Part shown: positions 11,394 to 27,527 of the stretch, in pieces | Layout: the number at the start of each line of letters is the position of its first letter | How positions within the stretch are numbered: the first letter of the stretch is position 1 | Assembly (NCBI RefSeq): GCF_036046055.1 | Contig: NZ_CP107939.1 | Span: forward strand, 6,386,001 to 6,450,000 | Direction: 5' to 3' | Source of the DNA: Nocardia sp. NBC_00403 | GTDB taxonomy: Bacteria; Actinomycetota; Actinomycetes; Mycobacteriales; Mycobacteriaceae | DNA: 64,000 nucleotides | The notes under the pieces: generated by a model | What the model was told of the DNA's origin: nothing | Databases searched by the model: none | Seen by the model: only the letters and a program-made list of their open reading frames with translations | Translations under genes and position numbers: made by a program

Positions 11394-12446
11394 GTGCGGC
11401 AGCAGATCATCATGGACGTCGATACCGGGATCGATGATTCCCTCGCGCTGCTCTATTTGCTGGCTTCCCCGGACGCCGACATCGTCGGCATCGCCGCTAC
11501 CGCAGGCAATGTGCCCGCACCGCGGGTGGCGGCGAACAATCTCGCGTGGCTGGATGTGTGCCGGGCGCCCGACATCGAAGTCGCGCTCGGCGCTGCCGAG
11601 CCCCTGGCCATCCCACTGCGCACCACCGAGGACACGCACGGGCCGCATGGGGTCGGCTACGCGGAACTGCCGGAATCCGCACGTTCGCTTTCGCGCCGGT
11701 CGGCCGCCCAGATGTGGGTCGAGCTGGTACGCGAGCGCCCCGGGCAGATCGTCGGCCTGTGCACCGGACCGCTGACCAATCTCGCGCTCGCCCTTCGCGT
11801 CGAGCCCGAGTTGCCCCGGCTGCTGCAACGACTGGTCATCATGGGCGGCGCATTCAACCATCCCGGCAATACGACGCCGACCAACGAATGGAACGTGCAC
11901 GTCGACCCGGAGGCTGCCAAGGAGGTCTTCGATGCCTTCTCGGCCGCGCCGCCCGACCGCCGACCGATCGTGTGCGCGCTCGATGTCACCGAGACCATCG
12001 AGATGTATCCCGTCCACCTTGAGCTGCTGGCCGAACGCGCGGGCAGCCTGCCGGTCGAGCAAGTGTCGGACACCGATTCGCCCGAGGCTCGCTCCGGCAC
12101 GAGCAACCCCATCGTCCGCCACCTGACCGACGCGGTGCGGTTCTACTTCGACTTCCACCGCACCTATGACCAGGGGTACCTGGCACATATGCACGACCCG
12201 TTCGCGGCGGCGATCGCCCTCGACCCCGCGCTCGCCGCCACCCGTCCGGCAACGGTCGATGTCGAACTGATCGGAACGCTCACCCGGGCAACCACGGTGG
12301 CCGATTGGGCCGGGATGTGGGGCCGGGAACCCAACGCCGACATCGTGATCGGCACCGATCCCGCGGCATTCTTCGAACGAATGATCACCAGGATCGGCGA
12401 CTTCGCCCGAGCCGTTTACCCGCCAGCGACACCTGAGGATGCGTGA
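11394..12446 (+). CDS. Inosine-uridine-type nucleoside hydrolase
   Basis: A 350-aa nucleoside hydrolase. The Ca2+-binding signature MDVDTGIDDS is at the N-terminus, followed by GPLTNLAL, an N-x-E segment (TPTNEWNVHVDPEAA) and a C-terminal HDPFAAA that supplies the last Asp. Known of the family: hydrolysis of ribonucleosides (or nicotinamide riboside) to base and ribose in salvage. The GTG start places the signature at residues 7-15, as usual. The amidohydrolase gene begins in its stop codon, so the two are coupled. Confidence 0.85.
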   Translation: MRQQIIMDVDTGIDDSLALLYLLASPDADIVGIAATAGNVPAPRVAANNLAWLDVCRAPDIEVALGAAEPLAIPLRTTEDTHGPHGVGYAELPESARSLSRRSAAQMWVELVRERPGQIVGLCTGPLTNLALALRVEPELPRLLQRLVIMGGAFNHPGNTTPTNEWNVHVDPEAAKEVFDAFSAAPPDRRPIVCALDVTETIEMYPVHLELLAERAGSLPVEQVSDTDSPEARSGTSNPIVRHLTDAVRFYFDFHRTYDQGYLAHMHDPFAAAIALDPALAATRPATVDVELIGTLTRATTVADWAGMWGREPNADIVIGTDPAAFFERMITRIGDFARAVYPPATPEDA

Positions 12447-15098: not shown

Positions 15099-15719
15099 AT
15101 GCCCGAAACGACGAGCACCCGCACGCACACCGGATCACGCCGCAATGAAGCGGCACGCGAGGCAATCCTCACCGCGGCCGCCGAACTGTTGTCCGAGCAC
15201 GGGAGTTCGGGCGTCACCATCAACCGCATCGCCGCGCACGCCGAGGTCGGCAGGCAGACCATCTATCGCTGGTGGCCCTCCAAGGACGCGGTGTTGCTCG
15301 ACGCGCTGGTCCATTCGGCCCAGCAGGCGGTGCCGATCCCGGATACCGGCGCCCTCGGCAGCGATCTCGATCTCTTCCTGCGCGAGACCTTCGCCGCGGC
15401 CGGGATCGAGCGCAACCGCCAGGCGTTGATCGCGGCAGTCATTGCCGCCCAGGATGATTCAGATCTCGAACAGTCGCTGCACGAGTTCCTGGCCCGCCGC
15501 CGCGCCGTCCTCGCCGAGGTGATCGAACGCAGCAAGTCCCGCGGTGACATCCCCCCGCACGCCGCTGTCGAGCCGGTCGTAGAACAAGCTTTCGGTGTGC
15601 TCTGGTACCGAATCCTGTTCCAGCCGACCGCGCTACACGCCGCGGCGGCGAGCGAACTCGCCACCGCGCTGACCACCCAGCTGCGTGCAGAGCGGGGTTT
15701 GGTTCACTCAGAGGCATGA
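15099..15719 (+). CDS. TetR-family regulator
   Basis: A 206-aa TetR regulator. The DNA-binding region reads TINRIAAHAEVGRQTIYRWWPSKDAV; the C-terminal helical domain is of the TetR_C type with VLWYRILF near its end. Its stop overlaps the start of the trpF-like gene in ATGA, so both are in one operon. The palindrome upstream suggests autoregulation and control of the divergent DDN-like gene. Confidence 0.85.
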   Translation: MPETTSTRTHTGSRRNEAAREAILTAAAELLSEHGSSGVTINRIAAHAEVGRQTIYRWWPSKDAVLLDALVHSAQQAVPIPDTGALGSDLDLFLRETFAAAGIERNRQALIAAVIAAQDDSDLEQSLHEFLARRRAVLAEVIERSKSRGDIPPHAAVEPVVEQAFGVLWYRILFQPTALHAAAASELATALTTQLRAERGLVHSEA

Positions 15720-17350: not shown

Positions 17351-18378
17351 TCAGCCGTGACGTCTGTCGCCCATCACCAGTTCACCGAGTTGTGCTTCGG
17401 ATTCGGGCGAGAACGGGTCCTGCCGGGCCCGATATGCGGCAACGGCTTGCCTGGTGTCCTCGGCGACCAGGTCGGCGTTGATCTGGGCCGCGGTGGCCGC
17501 GCCTGCCGCCGCCGCGGCACCCACCTGGGCGGTCAAGGCGGTGACGTTGCCTGCTACCCACACTCCGGGCGTTTCGGTGCGGCCGGTGGGGTCGGCGGGC
17601 AGAAATTCACCCATTCCCGACGGATGCTGCGACGGATGCAGTCCGAGCGAGGCGAGCATGGCCACCCGCGCAACCATCCGAGATTGGACTGCCAGCGCGG
17701 TTCGACGGACCACGGTACCGTCGCTCAGTCGCACTCCCGCGAGACGGTCCTCGACCACTTCCAGGGCGGCGACCTCGCCCTGCACCACCCTGAGCCGCGG
17801 GCCGCAAGTTGCTCGGCCTCCGAGCCGGTCGGCGGCAGCATGGTGTGCGAGAAGAATGTGACGTCGGCGCTCCATTGACGAAACAGCAAGGCCTGATGCA
17901 CCGCCATCGGACCGCAGGCAAGCACACCGATGGCCTGGTCGCGGACCTCCCAGCCGTGACAGTACGGGCAGTGCACCACATCCCGGCCCCACCGCTCACG
18001 CAGGCCGGGTAGGTCGGGAAGCTCGTCGACCAGCCCGGTGGTCACCAGCAGCCGCCGCGCCCGCACAGACCTGCCGTCGGTCAGCGCCACCAGGAACCCC
18101 TCGGCCGCACGGCCGACCGCGCCGGCTTCTCCGGCGACGACATGTCCGCCATAACCGCGGACCTCGGCCCGACCGCGCTCCAACAATTCGCCCGGCGCAA
18201 TCCCCTCCCGCGCCAACAGCCCGTGCACGCCCGCGGCCGGTGCGTTGCGCGGGGTGCCCGCATCGACCACCACCACCGTCCGCCGTGCTCGGGCGAGCAT
18301 GAGTGCTGCGCTCAACCCCGCAGCGCCACCGCCGACAATCACCACGTCATAGCCATCACTCAGCCGATCGGTCACCAT
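17351..18378 (-). pseudogene. Thioredoxin-reductase-like FAD oxidoreductase, frameshifted
   Basis: The N-terminal part (start ATG 18378, with GAGGAGG upstream) reads YDVVIVGGGAAGLSAALMLARA, then CPYCHGWE (the redox CxxC of this family) and GSEAEQLAARG. The frame then fails. The neighbouring frame continues the same protein from LRVVQGEVAALEVVEDRLAG through GVWVAGNVTALTAQVGAAA to the stop at 17351. The switch is at about 17795, consistent with loss of one base in a GC-rich stretch. Either the gene is broken or the assembly has a one-base error. The whole product would be about 340 aa. Confidence 0.75.
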
Positions 18379-18779
18379 GACCACCTCCTCGGTTCCACCA
18401 TGGGAGGCAACACACGATTTCGGCAAGATTGTTTGCCAATATGGCAAAACGGGAGGAAATGGACGACCTCGATCACGCACTCGGCGTGGTCGGCTCGTGG
18501 TAACGCGCAATACGCCGGCAGCAGCATGGCATGGGATGCCGTTGATTGTGCTGCGGCGATGCGTCGCGCCGCACTGTTCAGCGGCCTGGCCGAAGTCATG
18601 CTCGGTCCGTGGATTCCGCGCGGTCCGGGCGGTGGAATCCACGGCCGCACGTTGACGGTCACCGTGCTGGTCGAAACCTGCGGATGCGATGGCACGATGC
18701 CGCCGGTGGATTCGATCGTTCCCCGCCTGCCCGGCGACCCCCAGGCACAAGACCTCGCACGTCGACGGGCCTACGTCGC
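18379..18779. other. Intergenic region with one weak open frame
   Basis: A 400-nt region between the FAD-oxidoreductase start and the galE stop. A plus-strand frame from ATG 18526 to 18792 (88 codons, overlapping galE by 13 nt) has GC-rich third positions but no family I recognise and no ribosome binding site. AT-rich sequence at 18420-18450 probably holds the promoter of the minus-strand FAD gene. Confidence 0.35.
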
Positions 18780-19751
18780 CTATGGGATCTGATGGAACCG
18801 CCACGCATCGCGAACGATGTCGACGATGTCCAGTTTCTCCGGCGTCCAGCCGAGTTCCTGTTTCGCGAGCTCGGATGAGGCGTAGAGCGTTGCCGGGTCG
18901 CCCGGCCGCCGCGGTGCTGTCTCGAGATCAAACGGCACGCCGGTAACCTCTCGAATCGCTTCGATCACTTGCAGATTCGAGAACCCGATCCCGTTGCCCA
19001 GGTTGTAGATCTTGTGCTCGCCGGGGTGGATGGCATCGAGGGCGAGCAGGTGCGCGCGGGCGAGGTCGGTGATATGGATATAGTCACGCACGCATGTCCC
19101 GTCGGCGGTTGGATAGTCGTCACCGAACAGGCTGAATTTGTCGGCCCTGCCGATCGCGGCGTCGAGTGCCAGCGGGATCAGGTGGGTTTCGGGGTTGTGG
19201 CGTTCGCCGATCATAGTGCCGTCGCCGCAATCATGTGCCCCCGCAACGTTGAAGTAACGCAACGAGATTGCACCCAGCGGGAACGCACGGGTGAAGCTGG
19301 CGATCGCACGGTCGATCGCCAGCTTGGTGTCACCGTAGGTGTTCACCGGGGTGGTCGGTGAGGTCTCGACCAGTGGCAGCTCGGTCGGTTCGCCGTAGAC
19401 GGCTGCAGTGGAGGAGAACACCAGCTTGCCGACTTCGGCTGCGCGCATCGCGTCCAGCAATGCGAGTGAAGCGCGGGTGTTGTTGTCCCAATGCCATTCG
19501 GGATGGTGCATGGACTCGCCTGCCGCGATGAGGCCGGCGAAGTGTAAGACAGCGTCGAACTGGCTACCGGGGGTGAGAACTTCCGCCACGTCATGAACGC
19601 GCAGTTGCATGAACTTCGCGCCGTCGGGAATCTGCCGGTCGTCGTTGCGGGAGAGGTCGTCGACCACGACAACCTGATGCCCGGCGTCGAGCAGCATCCT
19701 CGTCACTGTGGCGCCGACGAACCCCGCACCCCCGGTTACCAGCAGCTTCAC
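18780..19751 (-). CDS. galE: UDP-glucose 4-epimerase (GalE-like)
   Basis: A 323-aa extended SDR. VTGGAGFVGATVTRML is the NAD-binding motif. FSSTAAVYGE gives the catalytic Ser/Thr, and NTYGDTK the YxxxK. GTCVRDYIHITDLARAH is the GalE signature before the sugar-binding part. Known reaction: UDP-glucose/UDP-galactose interconversion. The GTG start directly follows the TAA of the nucleotidyltransferase with no gap, so it is the last gene of the minus-strand operon with the ThiC paralogue. In that setting it may supply an epimerised sugar nucleotide instead of serving the Leloir pathway (inference). Confidence 0.85.
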   Translation of the reverse strand: MKLLVTGGAGFVGATVTRMLLDAGHQVVVVDDLSRNDDRQIPDGAKFMQLRVHDVAEVLTPGSQFDAVLHFAGLIAAGESMHHPEWHWDNNTRASLALLDAMRAAEVGKLVFSSTAAVYGEPTELPLVETSPTTPVNTYGDTKLAIDRAIASFTRAFPLGAISLRYFNVAGAHDCGDGTMIGERHNPETHLIPLALDAAIGRADKFSLFGDDYPTADGTCVRDYIHITDLARAHLLALDAIHPGEHKIYNLGNGIGFSNLQVIEAIREVTGVPFDLETAPRRPGDPATLYASSELAKQELGWTPEKLDIVDIVRDAWRFHQIP

Positions 19752-20783
19752 TTATCTGACCTGCACTTTCATGGCGAGTAGGTGGTCGTGAATTTCTTGC
19801 TTATGTGCCCGGAAGTAGTCCTCGGGGCTCGGTTGTGGTGCAGTGCCGGTCCAGCCCGTTGTCCGTTGCCAGGCGCGACGCTTCACGGTAGCCAACGCCG
19901 CTGGGTCTGGCGTACCGATCCATGTATCCGCCATCGCACACGCCACCGCGTGCACGGCTTGGTGGTGGCGAGCCACAATTCGACCGCTGCTCGTTGTCGC
20001 GTAACAGCTGTAGTTGACCGCGTCCGGACGTGGTAGCCCGAATTCGGTGTCGAACCGTTGGAATGCGTCGTGCAGGTAGGTCCAGAACCGGCCTGGGTCC
20101 ATCGGCGGTTGTGTCGGGTCGCGTCGCCAATTGAGTTCGGCGCGCATCTGTTCGGCGAGATGTGGTGCCATCCAGTCGAAATCGTGGTGTGCGTATGCGC
20201 CGTCGAGCATCGCGGTCGCGCGCAGGACCTTCATGCACAACCGGTTCACCATGAGGTGGAAGAGCGCCGAGTCTATTCCGGCGCACCACTGGTCATGGAT
20301 GCCGAGCCAAAAGTACGCCTGCGTGTAGTACAGCAAGATCTCGTAGGCGTCCCGGGCGTCGAGCTTCACCGGTTCGTGCTCAGGTAGGCCGTGCTCGGTG
20401 ACGCCCAGACCGAGATCTTTGAAGTCGAACCCGAGGGAGGTCTGGATGGCGCGGTAGTCACCGAGCGGCAGCGTCATCAGATCGATTGTGGGAAACGCTT
20501 TTCCGGCGAGCGCCCGCAGCTCGCGCACGGGCATCGACGGTTCGTCGCCGTAGTGGACATACAGGAAGTCGACGTCACTGATCAGCAGGCGCTCGCCCAC
20601 CGAACGGCTGATGAAGGTTGGCTCGCCGCGGGCCAGTGATCCGCCGACGATGAGCCAGTCGTCGTCCGGGACACAGCGGCCGAGCAACAGCAGGTCATCG
20701 GCGATGCTTACGGCCGTCTGCTCGAGCTCGGCCGCGTTGGACAGTCGTGAAGTGATGCGCTCAGCTAACGCGATGGCGTCCAT
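19752..20783 (-). CDS. Nucleotidyltransferase-fold protein
   Basis: A 343-aa protein with the pol-beta-type nucleotidyltransferase signature: GGSLARGE at residues 47-54 and SDVDF at 69-73 (D70 and D72 as metal ligands). The rest is mostly helical and Trp/His-rich, and I do not recognise it. Known of the fold: transfer of NMP to small molecules (aminoglycosides), proteins or RNA. It lies between the ThiC paralogue (1-nt gap) and galE (0-nt gap), so all three are surely translated from one mRNA. A role in activating a product or intermediate as a nucleotide conjugate is inferred. Confidence 0.7.
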   Translation of the reverse strand: MDAIALAERITSRLSNAAELEQTAVSIADDLLLLGRCVPDDDWLIVGGSLARGEPTFISRSVGERLLISDVDFLYVHYGDEPSMPVRELRALAGKAFPTIDLMTLPLGDYRAIQTSLGFDFKDLGLGVTEHGLPEHEPVKLDARDAYEILLYYTQAYFWLGIHDQWCAGIDSALFHLMVNRLCMKVLRATAMLDGAYAHHDFDWMAPHLAEQMRAELNWRRDPTQPPMDPGRFWTYLHDAFQRFDTEFGLPRPDAVNYSCYATTSSGRIVARHHQAVHAVACAMADTWIGTPDPAALATVKRRAWQRTTGWTGTAPQPSPEDYFRAHKQEIHDHLLAMKVQVR

Positions 20784-20784
20784 G

Positions 20785-22125
20785 TCACGCCTCAGTCTCA
20801 GCCGTCACGGCGAGCACTGGTGCTGGCATGGGAAGCAGCACCGGCCCCGAGTGCACCGCTGCTACAGGCATCTCCTCATGCTCCTTCTTCGCCGTGATGT
20901 GAGGACACAGTGCCCCGCAGATCGTGCACGGCGCACCCTTACGAAGCCCGTGCTCGATGAACACATTGCCCGCCAGACCCGGGTACAGAGCGTGGCCTTG
21001 CTGGATGTCCCAGTCGTTCGCGCGGCGTGCCACGCTGATCGCGCGCTGCTTGGCGACCTCGGGTTCCCAGCCGCGCACCAGCTCCAACGCGGAGATTGCG
21101 ACGCGGACCATGCGGACCGAGGTAGCGGTGTCGGGTGCGGTTGGCATGGCGTAGTGCTCGTTGTGGGTGATCGAGGCGAACATGTCGCCGCCGCATTGAC
21201 CAGCGGTCGCGACGCCGAGGACATTGACTGTGTCGTCGAGTGTCACACCGTTGTCGATCACCATGGGTCCGGCCAGCCACAACGGCGCACCGCCGAGTGC
21301 TTCCTTGTAGGCGGGAATGAGTTCCGGGATCCGGTGCAGCGGTATATGTCCGCCGCTTTCGCACAGGACCTGAACACCTCCGCAGAGCGCATCCTTGCGC
21401 AGCTCGGCGAGCAGCTGGATTTCGCGCCACTTCAGTTCGTCGCCTGCGTCTGCGGTGGCGCCGGGGCGGAAGATATCGCCGAGGTCCAGCACCACCTCCA
21501 GCCGGTTGCAGATGTCGATGATGCCGTCGAAGTACTCGATCAGCGGGTTGTCGCAGTCGTGCGTGCGCATGTAGCGCGCGATCAGGCCGCCGCCGCGTGA
21601 GGTGGTGGGCATGATCCGCGCGGACTTCTCGCTCATCTCGGCGAGCGCGGGGTTGATGCCTGCGTGGATGAGGACGAAGTCGACGCCGGGTGCCAGGCCG
21701 AGCTCGAACCTCTCCAGGAATTCATTGCGGCCCAGCTTCTTTCGGGGGTTAGCGAACAGGTCGTAGGTCAAGCACGCACCCAGAGGTACACCGACGACTT
21801 CCTTCAGGTCCGCTCGCAGTGCGACCCCTTCGGGGTTGGTGGTGAGGTCCATGACTGCGTCCGGGGTCGCCGCGAGGATCACGGCCATCCTGTCGACGAT
21901 GGCCTGCCGGTCGGTGTCACGCGGGCCCAGTCCGATGAGAGCGGTGATCTTGCGGCGGGTGTCTTCGCCGACGAGCAGTGGCCGGAACTCCGTCATGTGT
22001 CGGCTTGCCTGCGACCGCAGGAACACCAAGGTTCCGCTCTGAACACGACGGGCAGCTACGGCGGAATCCAACCCTTCGGTCTGACATGTGGCAATGAATT
22101 GGGAATCCGTTGCGAGGTCGAACAT
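20785..22125 (-). CDS. Divergent ThiC paralogue (radical SAM)
   Basis: A 446-aa protein clearly related to phosphomethylpyrimidine synthase ThiC (short form). The segment corresponding to ThiC EGPGHVPMH reads ESGGHIPLH, and the one corresponding to EHLGLP reads EHYAMP, so both His of the mononuclear metal site seem kept. The GYDHI segment is replaced by GVTLDDTV. The C-terminal cluster motif is C400-x2-C403-x3-C407 (CTICGALC) instead of the usual Cx2Cx4C. ThiC makes HMP-P from aminoimidazole ribotide; BzaF-type relatives make 5-hydroxybenzimidazole. These changes suggest a different product. The ATG has GAGAGGA before it. It lies mid-operon between the DUF4254-like gene (22-nt gap) and the nucleotidyltransferase. 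Confidence 0.8.
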   Translation of the reverse strand: MFDLATDSQFIATCQTEGLDSAVAARRVQSGTLVFLRSQASRHMTEFRPLLVGEDTRRKITALIGLGPRDTDRQAIVDRMAVILAATPDAVMDLTTNPEGVALRADLKEVVGVPLGACLTYDLFANPRKKLGRNEFLERFELGLAPGVDFVLIHAGINPALAEMSEKSARIMPTTSRGGGLIARYMRTHDCDNPLIEYFDGIIDICNRLEVVLDLGDIFRPGATADAGDELKWREIQLLAELRKDALCGGVQVLCESGGHIPLHRIPELIPAYKEALGGAPLWLAGPMVIDNGVTLDDTVNVLGVATAGQCGGDMFASITHNEHYAMPTAPDTATSVRMVRVAISALELVRGWEPEVAKQRAISVARRANDWDIQQGHALYPGLAGNVFIEHGLRKGAPCTICGALCPHITAKKEHEEMPVAAVHSGPVLLPMPAPVLAVTAETEA

Positions 22126-22147
22126 TTCGGTGTTCCTCTCAGTTGGG

Positions 22148-22629
22148 TTAATTCGGCGGAATGTGTTCGATTGGCCACGGGATCGGTGGCTGGCCGTCGA
22201 CGACGTCGGCAACCAAGTCCGCCCAGGCGACGGCGAGGGTGCTGGCCTCGCTCCAGGCGTCGTGCACGGCCGGCTCGGCAGCGTTCTTAGCGGTCTGCAG
22301 CACCAGCTCGGCGGCGACGTAGGCCGCAGCGAGATCATCGACTGCTCGACCGACGTGTTCGGTGCTGTTGGTGCTCGGCTGGATGTGGGTGCTGACCCAG
22401 TTGTTGATCAGTTCGACGAGTTCGCCTCGGCGGCGGTCGATTCGATCGGAAAGATCAGGATGCACGTGCCGCATGCGGTGAAGATGGGCAAGAGATCCTG
22501 CCCATCGAAGGATCAGGTTGTCGCCGGGTAAGACACCGCGCTCACCGCGAAAGCAGCGAGAAGCGCATGCCAGTCCGGCAACGTCACACAGGCGGTACTG
22601 CTTTCGATGAGCAGGAACCCGGGTCTCAT
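22148..22629 (-). pseudogene. DUF4254-like gene interrupted by a 1-nt frameshift
   Basis: An ATG at 22629 overlaps the stop of the preceding membrane peptide (ATGA) and reads MRPGFLLIESSTACVTLPD then WHALLAAF, but this frame stops at 22513. The adjacent frame takes over exactly at 22549 with RGERGVLPGDNLILRWAGSL and runs to the TAA at 22148. It contains LHRMRHVHPD and IDRRRGELVELINNWV, a pattern I associate with actinobacterial DUF4254 proteins. That frame has no ATG or GTG of its own before codon 84 of the open frame. Joined, the product is about 155 aa. Possible causes: mutation, assembly error, or a real -1 frameshift. Family name from memory only. Confidence 0.55.
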
Positions 22630-22775
22630 TGCGACGCTCGTTGTTCGGCGGCGAGCCTGCGCTGGATTTCGGCGACACTCGTGCCACCGCGTTTCTCCGG
22701 CCAGAGAACAAGCACGACGGCAAAGCTCAGGCCCATCGCGGCGGCGAATACCAAGACCCACAGAAACGCGGCCAT
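22626..22775 (-). CDS. 49-aa single-span membrane peptide
   Basis: The ORF begins MAAFLWVLVFAAAMGL, has one transmembrane helix (residues about 4-24), then WPEKRGG and a charged helical tail ending AEQRASQ. It starts 3 nt after the stop of the 60-aa peptide and its stop overlaps the next ATG, so it is firmly within the operon. No family recognised. It could anchor or export a product of the locus. It is short enough to be missed by ordinary gene calling. Confidence 0.6.
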   Translation of the reverse strand: MAAFLWVLVFAAAMGLSFAVVLVLWPEKRGGTSVAEIQRRLAAEQRASQ

Positions 22776-22778
22776 GAT

Positions 22779-22961
22779 TCAGCCGATGACTGTGGACAGT
22801 CGGGCCTGTGCCGTGAGAAACGGCGCACAGCTTGGCCCGTGGCCGGCGTGGATGCTCAGAATGAATTGAGCCTGTTCGAAGTTGATGTCGCTGGTGGGCT
22901 GCGCGCTGCAGTTGCTGTACGTCGTAGCCCACAGGTCCCTGGTGTCCAATTGCGTCGGCAT
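22779..22961 (-). CDS. 60-aa peptide heading the ThiC-paralogue operon
   Basis: First gene of the minus-strand operon. The ATG has an excellent AGGGGAG six to ten bases upstream. The N-terminus is MPTQLDTRDLWATTYSNCSA; the second half holds SIHAGHGPSCAPFL followed by TAQARLSTVIG. It has two Cys, two His and no signal peptide or membrane helix. I do not recognise the family. The length, its place before modifying-type enzymes and a sharply defined HGPSC segment make a ribosomal precursor peptide, a carrier peptide or a small regulator all possible. Confidence 0.65.
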   Translation of the reverse strand: MPTQLDTRDLWATTYSNCSAQPTSDINFEQAQFILSIHAGHGPSCAPFLTAQARLSTVIG

Positions 22962-23216
22962 GATTTTCTCCCCTGATGGCGGTCAAAGCACCCGGCGCCG
23001 GCCACCATTTGTGGCCTTTCAATTCCGCTGACCGGTGTGCGCGTATCCCAGATGAGGGAACCGAACGCCCGCCGCCGGGTACAGTTCTCAGCCTGCGCGG
23101 GTACGGCGGAAGCCAGAAGGCATCGCCCAGGCAATCTCCCGGCATTTCCAGGTCATCACACGATGTGTCCGGCGTAACCTGACACCACGATCGGCCTACA
23201 CGGTGCGGAGCAGCTG
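22962..23216. promoter_or_regulatory. Divergent promoter region of the ThiC-paralogue locus
   Basis: This 255-nt gap separates the minus-strand biosynthetic operon from the plus-strand HTH-TPR regulator, so both promoters must lie here. I see no strong palindrome and no confident -35/-10 pair. The regulator next to it is the obvious candidate to bind here. Confidence 0.5.
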
Positions 23217-24482
23217 ATGATCGGTCTCGATTGGACAGGGGTAGAGGTCGCATGCCTGCGCGTGGCAACGCTGCACGGCGTCGACGAGTTCGCGCACAAG
23301 ATCGGGTGCGCCCCACGATCAGTTCGGCTGTGGGAATCGAAAGGTCTACGGGCACAACTCAACCCCGCTAGCAAGCGCCTACTCGAGGACGAATACCGCA
23401 AGCTCGACAGTGCCCAATGCCAACGCTTCGAGGCAGCGCTGTCGAGGGTCGGTCGCCTGCCAACCGCGGCATCGTCGCCCGAGGCGATCCAGGTCATCCC
23501 CATGCAGAATCACCGGGTAGACATGTTCTCCGCGCTCGACAGCGTTCGCGCTGTCGTCGACCAAACGCTGTCGAAATGCACTATCACCTCATCCCGCGTC
23601 GAATTACTCGATGAACGAGTCGCCGACCGAGTACTGAGCTATACGGCGATGCCGCCGGCCATGGCGTTGACATCGATCGCGCCAGATCTGCTCGAGGTGC
23701 AGGCCGTCGCGGCCGAACGCCAGCCTGCAGCCATCCAAGCGCGCCTGTCCGAGGCAACCGCGGTGCTCGGATTGCTGACCGCCGATGCTCTGATGAAGCT
23801 CGGGGAGATCGAACGCGCGAATTACTGGTTCGGCACTGCCCGAATGGCCGCCGACGACACCCCGAATCGTCGGCTGCGCGCCAGGGTCCGGGCTCAACAC
23901 GCCATGCTGCCTTACTACTACGGCGACACCGAGAAGACCGTGGCCCTTGCCCAAGCGGCGCAAGCGATTCTGCCCGACACCGCATGCGACGAGACCGCCC
24001 TTGCCGCAGCAGCAGAAGCTAGAGCATTGGCCCGGCTAGGCGATGAATACGGCGCCGAACAGGCGTTGAACAAGGCGCAGCGACTCACCGACGCGCTCGA
24101 GAACAACACCAGCGACGAGGCATTCCGGTTCAACACCAAGCGTCTGCTGCTGTACACGTCTGGAACACTGACCTATATGGGGCGCACTGCTCGAGCTCGC
24201 CGTGTCCAGGATGAGGCACTGCAGCTTTATCGGCCGACATCGGTGATTATCGACCCGGCGTTGATCCATCTCGACGCCGCAGTCGGCCACGCAATGGATG
24301 GGTCGGCAGATGACGGCTGCCAACTCGCGGCCGGAGTCCTGGACGATCTACCGACCGAGCACCGCACCCGGATCGTGATTACGCGCGCATCCGACGTTCT
24401 CGACGCCCTCCCCGCTGGCTGTCGCCAGCTGCCGTCGGCTGGCACTTTGCGCGAGCTCGTATGCGCTGAGACGGCGACCTGA
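23217..24482 (+). CDS. HTH-TPR transcriptional regulator
   Basis: A 421-aa protein. Residues about 15-75 form a helix-turn-helix-like region (VDEFAHKIGCAPRSVRLWESKG). The remainder is a run of paired helices of TPR type (for example GEIERANYWFGTARMAADD and DEYGAEQALNKAQRL). Such regulators are common in actinomycetes next to specialised-metabolism genes. It faces the ThiC-paralogue operon across a shared promoter region and overlaps the kinase-like gene downstream (TGATG), so it is probably the regulator of this locus. Confidence 0.8.
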   Translation: MIGLDWTGVEVACLRVATLHGVDEFAHKIGCAPRSVRLWESKGLRAQLNPASKRLLEDEYRKLDSAQCQRFEAALSRVGRLPTAASSPEAIQVIPMQNHRVDMFSALDSVRAVVDQTLSKCTITSSRVELLDERVADRVLSYTAMPPAMALTSIAPDLLEVQAVAAERQPAAIQARLSEATAVLGLLTADALMKLGEIERANYWFGTARMAADDTPNRRLRARVRAQHAMLPYYYGDTEKTVALAQAAQAILPDTACDETALAAAAEARALARLGDEYGAEQALNKAQRLTDALENNTSDEAFRFNTKRLLLYTSGTLTYMGRTARARRVQDEALQLYRPTSVIIDPALIHLDAAVGHAMDGSADDGCQLAAGVLDDLPTEHRTRIVITRASDVLDALPAGCRQLPSAGTLRELVCAETAT

Positions 24483-25405
24483 TGACGCGCCATACGGAAC
24501 CCGCCGGCCTCGCCGAATCAACCTTCAGTCCCGAACGAACACGAGCTGTGCTTGAAGCCGCCTGCCGTATCGCGGGTATCGACGCTAGCAACGCGAACTT
24601 GCTGCGTCATCACACCAACGCCGTCTATGCACTCACGCGCGAGCCGATTGTGGTGAAAATTGGCCGGCCAGACCGTAATGGCCACATCGACGTCGTCGGA
24701 CTCGTGCAGTGGCTCGAGCTGGAGTCGGTGCCGACTGTCCCTCTCGTCGAAGTCGACCAGCCACTCCAGATCGCGGGATGCCCTGTGACTTTCTGGCGGT
24801 ATATGGACCAGCAGAACGGTGTGGTCAGCGCAGTCGAGCTCGCCGACCCCCTCGCGTCGCTGCATTCGCGATCGACCGCACCGCCGATCCCTCTTCCGGA
24901 TCAGCAAATTCGCAACACAATCACTGCGATCGCCGACGCCATCGATACCAGCGTGATCCTGTCCCCCGGGGATCGAACTCTGCTGCATGCTCGACGAAAA
25001 GACCTCGCGCAGCAGGCAACCGAGGTTCGGTACGGGCTGCAACGAGGTTTGATCCACGGCGATGCGCACCACCGAAACGCACTGTGGGACCGGCACAACG
25101 GGCGCGCGGTCCTGTGTGATTGGGAGAACGCGGCGATCGGCCCGCCCGAGTGGGACCTTGTCACCCTCGAGGTCCACTGCCGACGCTTCGGCCACCCGGC
25201 CGAAGAATACGACCAGTTTTGCCGCGCATACGGGCTCGATATCCGAGATTGGACCGGCTATCTGTGGCTGCGGAACCTGCGGGAACTGCGCATGATCACC
25301 ACCAATGCCCGTAAATCTGCGCCGGAGTCGGACGCCGCCGTCGAGGTCCTGCGACGGATTGAGGCGCTATACGCCGATGCGCCGATCACCTGGAACATCC
25401 TGTAG
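24482..25405 (+). CDS. APH/choline-kinase-type phosphotransferase
   Basis: A 307-aa protein-kinase-like fold enzyme. VVKIGRP holds the probable ATP-binding Lys, GLIHGDAHHRNAL (H192 onward) is the HGDxHxxN catalytic loop, and VLCDWENA supplies the Mg2+-binding Asp. Known of the family: phosphorylation of small-molecule hydroxyls (aminoglycosides, choline, homoserine, methylthioribose). It is coupled to the HTH-TPR gene (ATG overlaps TGA). In this locus it could phosphorylate an intermediate, for instance a ThiC-like pyrimidine alcohol, or give self-protection (inference). Confidence 0.8.
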   Translation: MTRHTEPAGLAESTFSPERTRAVLEAACRIAGIDASNANLLRHHTNAVYALTREPIVVKIGRPDRNGHIDVVGLVQWLELESVPTVPLVEVDQPLQIAGCPVTFWRYMDQQNGVVSAVELADPLASLHSRSTAPPIPLPDQQIRNTITAIADAIDTSVILSPGDRTLLHARRKDLAQQATEVRYGLQRGLIHGDAHHRNALWDRHNGRAVLCDWENAAIGPPEWDLVTLEVHCRRFGHPAEEYDQFCRAYGLDIRDWTGYLWLRNLRELRMITTNARKSAPESDAAVEVLRRIEALYADAPITWNIL

Positions 25406-25431
25406 CGCTCTCGAGCGGTAGGCTCGGCCAG

Positions 25432-26376
25432 ATGCATGTCGTCGTCATCGGTTCGGGGATCTCGGGTCTCTCGACAGCGGCCGAGCTGCTCCGCGCCGAG
25501 CACGAGGTCACCGTCGTGAGCGCGGAACCGATCAGCGCCACGACGTCGTTTCTTGCTGCGGCCGTATGGTTTCCGACTGCGGCGAGTCCGGCCGATCGTG
25601 TCGGGGCGTGGAGCATGCAGACATTCGCTCATCTGGAAGCCCGCGCCGCCGCCGGTACGCCCGGGGTACGCATGTGCGAATCGCTGGCACTGTATCGGAG
25701 CGAACCCCCGACGCCCATCTGGTCGGGCACCGTGCGCGCCTTCCGCGCCGCCGACAACGACGAGCTCCCGCCCGGCTATGGGTTCGGGTTCGGATTCGCC
25801 GTTCCGCTCGTCGAGATGCCCGTGTTTCTGCCGCATCTTCACGACGAGGTCGGCGCGGCAGGGGCGCGGTGGATCCGGCGCTTGGTGCGCCGACTCGATG
25901 ATGTCACCGACCTGGCACCCGACGTCGTGATCAACTGTGCCGGATTGCGTGCAGGAGAACTGGTCGACGATCCGACCATCTATCCGATTCGCGGGCAAAT
26001 CGTTCGCGTGACCAACCCCGGGCTGACCGTATCGGTCCGCGACGAAGCGCATCCACTCGGTCGTGCGTACGTCCACCCGCGCGAAAACGACTGCATCCTC
26101 GGCGGCTCCCTCGATGCGGACGAGTGGGACCTGACTCCGAATCCCGCACTGACACAGTCGATCCTGGACAGGTGCCGCGATCTCGCCCCGCAACTGGCCG
26201 ACAGTCGGGTGATCGAAACGCTTGTCGGCTTGCGGCCGGGCCGCGACGAGGTTCGACTCGAGCTGGACCGCTCTACCCCAACACCCGTGATCCACAATTA
26301 CGGTCACGGCGGATCCGGCATCACCATCGGTTACGGCTGCGCACGCGAGGTCGCGGCGATCGTCGACGGCCTCTGA
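25432..26376 (+). CDS. D-amino-acid-oxidase-like flavoprotein
   Basis: A 314-aa FAD protein. VVVIGSGISGLSTAAELLRAEH is the dinucleotide-binding start. DVVINCAGLRAGEL, YPIRGQIVRV, LRPGRDEVRLE (with the substrate-binding Arg) and the final NYGHGGSGITIGYGCA are the D-amino-acid oxidase signature. Known reaction: oxidative deamination of D-amino acids (or glycine in ThiO) to imino acid and H2O2. It follows the kinase-like gene by 26 nt. A ThiC paralogue together with a ThiO/DAO-type enzyme recalls thiamine genes, but no other thi gene is here. Confidence 0.85.
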   Translation: MHVVVIGSGISGLSTAAELLRAEHEVTVVSAEPISATTSFLAAAVWFPTAASPADRVGAWSMQTFAHLEARAAAGTPGVRMCESLALYRSEPPTPIWSGTVRAFRAADNDELPPGYGFGFGFAVPLVEMPVFLPHLHDEVGAAGARWIRRLVRRLDDVTDLAPDVVINCAGLRAGELVDDPTIYPIRGQIVRVTNPGLTVSVRDEAHPLGRAYVHPRENDCILGGSLDADEWDLTPNPALTQSILDRCRDLAPQLADSRVIETLVGLRPGRDEVRLELDRSTPTPVIHNYGHGGSGITIGYGCAREVAAIVDGL

Positions 26377-26525
26377 CCACACATCCTCGGCGAGGAATAC
26401 CGTGGGCACCCACGGCGACCCCACCCGGCCACGAGCGCCATCGAGAACCGCACCTCGTCGTACGGCTGTCCGATCGTCTGGCAGTATCCTAGGACGCGAC
26501 CGAGCACGTGCCGCCCCGTCGCCCC

Positions 26526-27527
26526 TCAGCTGTCGAAGGCGTCGAGTATCTCTTCGGCGGCCAGCGCTGCGGTAAGAGTGCCGTCGCGGACCTGTTTCTC
26601 CACTTGGGCCCGAATGGCTTTCACGTTCGGGTTGGCCGCGAGGCGGCGCGACAACTGGTCATGAACCATGGTCCAGGTCCAGTCGATCTGCTGGCGGCGG
26701 CGCTTCTCGTCGAATTCCCCCGCGTCGGTGAGAACTCGGCGGTGTTCGAGGACAGCGTCCCAGAACTTGTCCAGGCCATGGCCTTCCAGACCGCTCATAG
26801 TGAGAACCGGTGGGCGCCACAGCGCGTCGTGCGGGTGGATGAGGCGCAGCGCGCCCACCAGTTCGCGGGCGGCGGCCTTGGCTTCGAGTTCGTGTTTGCC
26901 GTCGGCTTTGTTCACGGCGACCAGGTCAGCGAGTTCGAGGACACCTTTCTTGATGCCCTGCAACTGATCTCCGGTCCTGGCCAGGGTCAGGAAGCAGAAG
27001 ACGTCGACCATATTGGCGACCGTCACCTCGGACTGGCCGACGCCAACGGTCTCGACCAGGATCACGTCGTATCCTGCGGCTTCGAGCAGGACGATGGTTT
27101 CGCGCGTTGCCTTGGCGACGCCGCCGAGGGTGCCCGCCGTCGGTGACGGGCGGATATAGGCATTGCGCTCCAACGACAGTCGTGCCATGCGGGTCTTGTC
27201 GCCGAGGATGGAGCCGCCGGTCCGGGTGGAGGACGGGTCGACCGCCAGTACCGCGACGCGGTGCCCCCTGCCGATCAGATCCATGCCGAGCGCGTCGATG
27301 AAGGTCGACTTGCCGACACCCGGAACACCGGTGATACCGACACGATTCGACACCGCGACGTTCTCGGAGCCGGCCTCGGGAGTCAGCCGCAGCAGCAGTT
27401 GCTGCGCCAGTGCCCGGTGATCGGCCCGTGTCGATTCGACCAACGTGATCGCCCGCGCCACGGCGGCCCGCTCGTTGTTGCGGACCGCCTCGGCGAGTGC
27501 GTCGACGTCGATGACGCGTCTGCTCAT
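26526..27527 (-). CDS. meaB: MeaB/ArgK GTPase, methylmalonyl-CoA mutase chaperone
   Basis: A 333-aa G3E P-loop GTPase. It has Walker [30 protein letters not shown] (MeaB signature), ETVGVGQSE and the NKAD base-specificity motif. Known role: guards loading and reactivation of the adenosylcobalamin cofactor of methylmalonyl-CoA mutase. Its ATG overlaps the mutB stop (ATGA), completing the mutA-mutB-meaB operon. Confidence 0.93.

Follow-up and report, generated by a model that had tools for sequence, protein, structure and literature searches.

What does a second, divergent ThiC do in a genome that already carries a canonical thiC gene? The question is raised by a 64,000-nucleotide stretch of DNA (the window), positions 6386001–6450000 of the 8.73-Mb single-contig genome of Nocardia sp. 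NBC_00403, in which a gene for a ThiC-like radical S-adenosylmethionine (SAM) protein is followed by genes for a nucleotidyltransferase (NTase) and a GalE-type UDP-hexose 4-epimerase. The radical cascade of ThiC is called the most complex in primary metabolism, and to our knowledge two outcomes are known from aminoimidazole ribotide (AIR), namely 4-amino-5-hydroxymethyl-2-methylpyrimidine phosphate (HMP-P) and hydroxybenzimidazole. At a probability of roughly 0.6, the locus is a mobile accessory three-gene operon of Nocardia, in which a neofunctionalised ThiC would make another AIR-derived product that is elaborated by the NTase and GalE. The retained radical machinery, the replaced finishing residues, the linkage to the NTase gene, purifying selection and mobility make a neofunctionalised ThiC heading a small accessory pathway the simplest account.

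Family and Fold of the ThiC-like Protein

The ThiC-like protein matches PF01964 at 279.5 bits against a gathering score of 25 but stays below the equivalog cut-offs of ThiC (TIGR00190, 237.2 versus 460 bits; PRK13352, 279.7 versus 410; PRK09284, 169.8 versus 650), and its identity to ThiC is 28–34%. Its AlphaFold2 model, with a pLDDT (predicted local distance difference test) of 90.1, superimposes on the AtThiC structure with AIR and SAM products (4s27) with a template modelling (TM) score of 0.82 and a root-mean-square deviation (rmsd) of 2.1. As judged from the sequence and the predicted structure, homology to ThiC and a ThiC fold are certain. In a tree of 41 rows, rooted at the midpoint only, the ThiC-like family forms a clade with 100/100 support on a long stem, and BzaF lies on the ThiC side. 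Because the branches are long, the deep placement of the clade within the ThiC tree is unsure. The CX2CX3C cluster motif, which takes the place of CX2CX4C in long ThiC proteins, was dropped as a special feature since short ThiC proteins share it.

Retained and Replaced Active-Site Residues

Active-site residues were mapped over 48 proteins of the family (P0001–P0048), the denominators being the rows with letters at the position, and the numbering offset of 9 between AtThiC and CcThiC was derived from residue pairs in PMC4389238 and PMC11117688. In the excerpts of these two papers, AtThiC N228 contacts the ribose 3'-OH, D383 the imidazole N3 and E422 the 2'-OH; Y286, H322, S342, R343, G344 and R386 of ThiC make the phosphate/SAM-carboxylate contacts, H426 and H490 are metal ligands, and E489 contacts SAM. 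The excerpts of PMC4389238 also describe N228 and Y449 of AtThiC as contacts of ribose and base, and those of PMC11117688 describe C474 of CcThiC as the catalytic hydrogen donor ahead of CO loss. Y286, H322, S342, R343, G344, D383, R386, E422 and H426 are kept in 48/48 family proteins, H490 in 46/46, and the cluster cysteines in each row that has letters at these positions; the window protein, like nearly all members of the family, has the C-terminal cluster Cys, metal ligands His426 and His490 and SAM ligand Glu489. These conserved residues demonstrate that the predicted machinery that generates the 5'-deoxyadenosyl radical and binds a 5'-phosphorylated ribotide has been retained. In contrast, N228 is replaced by Leu in 48/48 proteins, Y449 by Trp in 47/47, C474 by Ala in 42/45 (Cys in P0041 and P0046, Asp in P0024), L493 by Met in 45/46 and M572 mostly by Ile (44/47). 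N228, Y449 and C474 are all kept in 24/24 other ThiC proteins (P0050–P0073) and in the canonical ThiC of the same genome, and they also occur in P0117–P0120.

According to the excerpts of PMC11117688, AtThiC with the N228D substitution consumes AIR and forms no HMP-P, and CcThiC with the C474S substitution yields neither HMP-P nor CO and accumulates an aldehyde that is trapped as an oxime. By analogy with these Asp and Ser mutants, whereas the family itself has Leu and Ala, we infer that the family would make no HMP-P, and the ThiC-like protein probably differs from an ordinary HMP-P synthase. Since ThiC cannot complete its reaction without the residues that are altered here, the operon probably makes a product other than vitamin B1. 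An earlier note drawn from the letters of the window (the original prediction) had held that the paralogue is not the thiamine enzyme, and the active-site changes lend strong support to such altered chemistry.

A second HMP-P synthase isozyme, serving thiamine synthesis under other conditions, is quite unlikely. The clear ThiC homology and fold and the retention of D383, E422, the phosphate anchor and the metal ligands would suit an isozyme, but its scores fall below TIGR00190 and PRK13352 as given above, and two residues are replaced whose mutants yield no HMP-P in the excerpts of PMC11117688. Moreover, each of the 28 further Nocardia genomes tested, a set selected for an NTase match that comprises carriers and remnants of the operon, has a canonical ThiC (623–636 bits); the 19 full-core carriers among them have a second ThiC at 276–295 bits. 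Thus a normal thiC, whose absence elsewhere in the genome would have told against the original prediction, is present here and in 28/28 other genomes. A thiamine pyrophosphate (TPP) riboswitch match lies directly upstream of the canonical thiC (51 bits, E 8.8e-8); this match falls below the gathering score of 54.3, and the riboswitch results rest on the E-value threshold. Across window positions 18000–26800, no Rfam match is seen at E 1. The family scan covered nine locus proteins and revealed no thiamine gene among them; the earlier statement that no other thiamine gene is present holds for these proteins, and the canonical thiC sits elsewhere in the genome. Directly after the canonical thiC there is a GalE-like gene of the short-chain dehydrogenase/reductase (SDR) type (G000:479725–480618, L058) with a sub-cut-off TIGR01179 score of 198.6 bits, which is probably unrelated to the core GalE, as suggested by their 37% identity.

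The replaced residues also bear on a benzimidazole-type paralogue (BzaF, BzaA or BzaB) that would convert AIR into a cobamide lower ligand or a similar ring. With the Bza enzymes there is precedent for ThiC paralogues forming other rings from AIR, and BzaF (5-hydroxybenzimidazole synthase) is likewise a ThiC paralogue with an altered active site, in which N228 is replaced, by Ser in T. lovleyi BzaF. However, this one BzaF sequence compared, which was taken from a plasmid record, keeps Y449 and C474 and changes another set of residues (D383N and R343K). The ThiC-like protein reaches 214.2 bits with the BzaB model, whose cut-off is 700 bits, the BzaF model is not among its NCBIfam matches, and BzaF falls on the ThiC side of the tree. 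No cobamide genes occur among the annotated neighbours, whereas T. lovleyi bzaF adjoins cobT. A function of this type is therefore very unlikely.

A Conserved Three-Gene Core

Searches of genome contigs with the ThiC-like protein gave 17 related loci, all in Nocardia, which include the near-identical sets L011/L012/L017 and L015/L016/L018 and extend no further than about 8 kb beyond the core on each side. The ThiC-like, NTase and GalE genes are consecutive in this order in 17/17 loci, with frame breaks in the NTase gene of L008 and in the ThiC-like gene of L019, a metagenome-assembled genome (MAG), and the order is maintained down to 53–58% NTase identity. The three frames are intact in the window, with 0–1 base between neighbours and 22 nucleotides ahead of the ThiC-like gene. 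These gene-order counts come from genome loci; the family members P0030–P0048 are metagenome proteins. Among 148 Nocardia genomes, NTase matches are found in 29 and ThiC-like matches in 22, and full-length ThiC-like and NTase genes adjoin each other in the same 20 genomes (the NTase gene of G093 has a frame break). Both genes are damaged in G122 and G063, and seven genomes hold NTase remnants and, by PF01964, canonical ThiC only. This co-occurrence suggests that the ThiC-like/NTase pair is gained and lost together. The linkage of GalE is looser, as L065 and L066 keep GalE with a cut NTase gene and no ThiC-like gene. In G104 (L060), only the trio and a divergent regulator with helix-turn-helix (HTH) and tetratricopeptide repeat (TPR) domains are seen, and the three-gene core is the minimal unit. 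Rough ratios of nonsynonymous to synonymous substitution rates (dN/dS) are 0.087–0.252 in nine comparisons, in which dS is near saturation, and GalE is the most conserved of the trio by this measure in two of three comparisons. By these estimates, the core genes are under purifying selection; with the intact frames and the retained gene order, this speaks for more than chance.

By its own terms, the original prediction would fall if the neighbours of the paralogue did not recur in other genomes. Those of the core do, in the 17 loci and in the same 20 of 148 genomes, while the whole nine-gene set does not hold together as a unit, as only the ThiC-like, NTase and GalE genes are conserved. The idea that a conserved set with a ThiC paralogue plausibly assembles a small molecule gains from the core linkage and the active-site changes.

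Outside these genomes, the ThiC-like family is absent at E 1e-60 from 394 genomes of the class besides the window's own. In 396 genomes of the phylum, the other 37 matches are about 30–34% identical to the ThiC-like protein and resemble ordinary short ThiC, and five of them are placed with ThiC in the tree. NTase matches occur in 3/301 genomes of the family, all Nocardia (1/31 genera). In plasmid records, ThiC matches are all under 60% identity, and no NTase match is found. A search of the openly licensed literature, outside which subscription papers lie, yielded no paper on a ThiC-like/NTase/GalE operon. In two proteins, P0049 and P0075, part of the ThiC-like sequence runs directly into NTase sequence; by their sequences, they are apparently deletion products of the core. 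P0074, which joins a carrier-protein piece to a ThiC piece on a 1717-base contig, was set aside as a probable assembly chimera.

Apparent Mobility of the Core

At the MeaB gene flanking the window locus, six relatives (G001–G006) were compared, and the trio is missing from all six stretches retrieved. MeaB and a TetR gene, the window counterpart of which ends at 15719, are about 200 bases apart in G005; by this comparison, the roughly 10.8 kb that separate MeaB from TetR in the window have no counterpart in G005. Another left-flank window gene lies no more than about 160 bases from MeaB in G002, G003 and G004, whereas different DNA of 4 to 8 kb occupies this position in G001 and G006. Four of the six relatives lack the stretch of about 10.8 kb. 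TrwC relaxases are encoded near the core copies of L003, L008 and L007. In a predicted provirus (IMG/VR IMGVR_UViG_2585428000_000009, L069:747–8932), the core lies between a tyrosine integrase gene and phage tail genes, and its ThiC-like gene is almost identical in the tree to P0024 of N. otitidiscaviarum. The core loci compared otherwise lie in differing surroundings. The three-gene core thus looks mobile. Inosine-uridine-type nucleoside hydrolase genes are also found near the core, at L013:15058–15921 and at window positions 11394–12446, the latter named through 74–84% identical relatives and by eye rather than by a family scan. Their proximity is probably a coincidence, since core-free genomes also have relatives of the window gene beside MeaB.

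The Nucleotidyltransferase and GalE

At E 0.1, the NTase has no match among the Pfam and NCBIfam models, and a sequence search of the PDB gave no relative. Its pol-beta-type motif (G47, G48 and S49, D70, D72 and D/E101) is present in 36/36 sequences. The top Foldseek matches are to the nucleotidyltransferase HalB of the phage-defence system Hailong (E 4.4e-3), whereas VIA-align places AadA (9.4) above HalB (7.9). The AadA/ANT(3'')(9) adenylyltransferases are 10–14% identical to the NTase, which differs from them in having an extra C-terminal helical part and no Pfam or NCBIfam match. The HalB matches, together with the core inside a prophage contig and near relaxases, could point to a unit that serves mobile elements in defence or signalling, with the NTase making a nucleotide signal. 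However, no PADLOC model (2023 library) matched the ThiC-like protein, the NTase or GalE, AadA scores over HalB in VIA-align, and the core has no effector-like gene, making a defence role distinctly improbable. The regulator and the kinase of the divergent arm were also unmatched by PADLOC, and the oxidase of that arm gave a weak partial match only. We know of no ThiC-like enzyme in defence.

GalE is over the cut-off of TIGR01179 (356.4 versus 262.3 bits) and present in 17/17 loci. It is the second galE-grade gene of the genome; the other one over the cut-off, at G000:6938275, is 53.6% identical. The core GalE therefore passes the same model as UDP-glucose 4-epimerase GalE but is a second copy linked to a ThiC-like gene. 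Conservation of GalE by dN/dS and its survival alone in L065 and L066 would fit a sugar-nucleotide or cell-surface pathway with the NTase and GalE at its centre and with a nucleotide-sugar or some other phosphorylated compound, rather than AIR, as the substrate of the ThiC-like protein. The replacement of both N228 and Y449, the AtThiC contacts of ribose and base, would fit it as well. Such a pathway is nevertheless unlikely, as the whole phosphate anchor and D383, the contact of imidazole N3, are unchanged and the core is without a glycosyltransferase.

A Proposed Pathway

For the AIR-derived pathway preferred here, we infer the product and the order of steps as follows. The ThiC-like enzyme would bind AIR or a close ribotide and start the same radical cascade. 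Without Asn228 and Cys474, the cascade may end at another product, perhaps a pyrimidine keeping the carbon that ThiC releases as CO. The NTase would add a nucleoside monophosphate to this product or to a sugar partner, at a hydroxyl or phosphate, and a UDP-hexose would be supplied or altered by GalE. The local HTH/TPR regulator would control the core, and small proteins, the kinase and, in other species, a methyltransferase may act as variable decorations or regulators. More speculatively, and rather doubtfully, the family could mirror in nature the ThiC C474 mutant: the cysteine loss would have been selected, the AIR cascade would stop before CO loss to give an aldehyde-bearing pyrimidine phosphate, and this would be nucleotidylated and joined to a hexose, forming an undescribed class of nucleotide-like metabolites spread in Nocardia by prophages and conjugative elements.

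The ThiC-like family thus shares the predicted fold, the radical-SAM cluster Cys, the metal His, the phosphate anchor, D383 and E422 with ThiC (PF01964, TIGR00190) but differs from it in N228L, Y449W, C474A, L493M and M572I, in its own clade, in that no TPP riboswitch was found, and in its operon with the NTase and GalE. A selected, conserved Leu/Trp/Ala family is a natural experiment on how the ThiC cascade is steered, and the operon offers candidate genes for the steps after the ThiC-like reaction. Databases name these proteins plain 'phosphomethylpyrimidine synthase ThiC', which would mislead predictions of thiamine pathways.

Companion Genes and Locus Layout

The features of the locus are collected in Table 1. 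The small-peptide genes and the divergent arm of a TPR-type regulator, an APH-fold kinase and a DAO-fold oxidase are present as originally described, the arm being seen in family scans. The description of six tightly packed genes holds for the ThiC-like, NTase and GalE genes, and it needs correction for the DUF4254-like gene, the parts of which appear to lie in two frames. This gene is in a single frame in seven relatives (L003, L004, L005, L007, L008, L010 and L069), and seven other DUF4254-like copies over the cut-off occur in the genome outside the window. Of the 17 core loci and nine others compared, L008 alone has a relative of the membrane peptide, at 51% identity.

The 60-aa peptide and the DUF4254-like gene are occasional companions of the core. 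A peptide-modifying cluster of the RiPP (ribosomally synthesised and post-translationally modified peptide) kind, with the 60-aa peptide as precursor, could be read from its place as the first gene of the minus-strand run and from its recurrence, but the other 11/17 core loci have no peptide match, so that no constant precursor-enzyme linkage is seen, and relatives of the peptide occur elsewhere in the same genome, one of them beside a TPR regulator without the core. A RiPP-like cluster is thus extremely improbable, and the suggested processing of the peptide finds no support. At L085:7626–9398, a 60-aa-type Cys/His protein gene is divergent to a TPR regulator gene as in the window, without the core. 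The recurring DUF4254-like and 60-aa Cys/His proteins may be shared regulatory companions.

HTH/TPR regulators are found near many other core copies, and 31–35% identical relatives of the kinase occur in 5/17 loci and also in L061 and L063. The regulator and the kinase therefore keep their predicted place as recurrent companions, albeit optional ones. The oxidase, by contrast, is absent from 17/17 related loci, flanks of up to about 8 kb being covered, and not meaningfully present in L069, and it is judged to lie outside the system; its top NCBIfam match is ThiO, at 89.7 bits far below the cut-off of 250.8. A class I SAM methyltransferase is encoded directly after GalE in 5/17 loci, for example at L013:11333–12139 and L009:11283–12143 (by Pfam for two), and it possibly performs a late tailoring step.

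Table 1. Genes of the Nocardia sp. NBC_00403 locus, in window coordinates (APH, aminoglycoside phosphotransferase; DAO, D-amino-acid oxidase).
Feature	Position	Strand	Basis
GalE-type UDP-hexose 4-epimerase, third core gene	18780–19751	-	TIGR01179
NTase, second core gene	19752–20783	-	GGSxARGE...SDxD motif and predicted fold
ThiC-like radical SAM protein, first core gene	20785–22125	-	PF01964, residue mapping, AlphaFold2 model
DUF4254-like companion, apparently split over two frames	22148–22630	-	PF14063 17.5 bits, below the 27-bit cut-off
49-aa membrane peptide	about 22626–22775	-	sequence read by eye
60-aa Cys/His-containing small protein, optional companion	22779–22961	-	6/17 related loci
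Divergent NsdA-family TPR regulator	23217–24482	+	NF053720 86.4 bits, cut-off 75
APH-fold kinase, optional companion of the regulator	24482–25405	+	PF01636 58.0 bits; HGDAHHRN motif
DAO/ThiO-fold FAD oxidase, judged outside the system	25432–26376	+	PF01266 142.2 bits

Beyond GalE, at window positions 17351–18400 on the minus strand, a gene for a thioredoxin-reductase-like FAD oxidoreductase is apparently split over the overlapping open reading frames 17725–18804 and 17351–17992, and it appears to be either a pseudogene or the result of a sequencing error.

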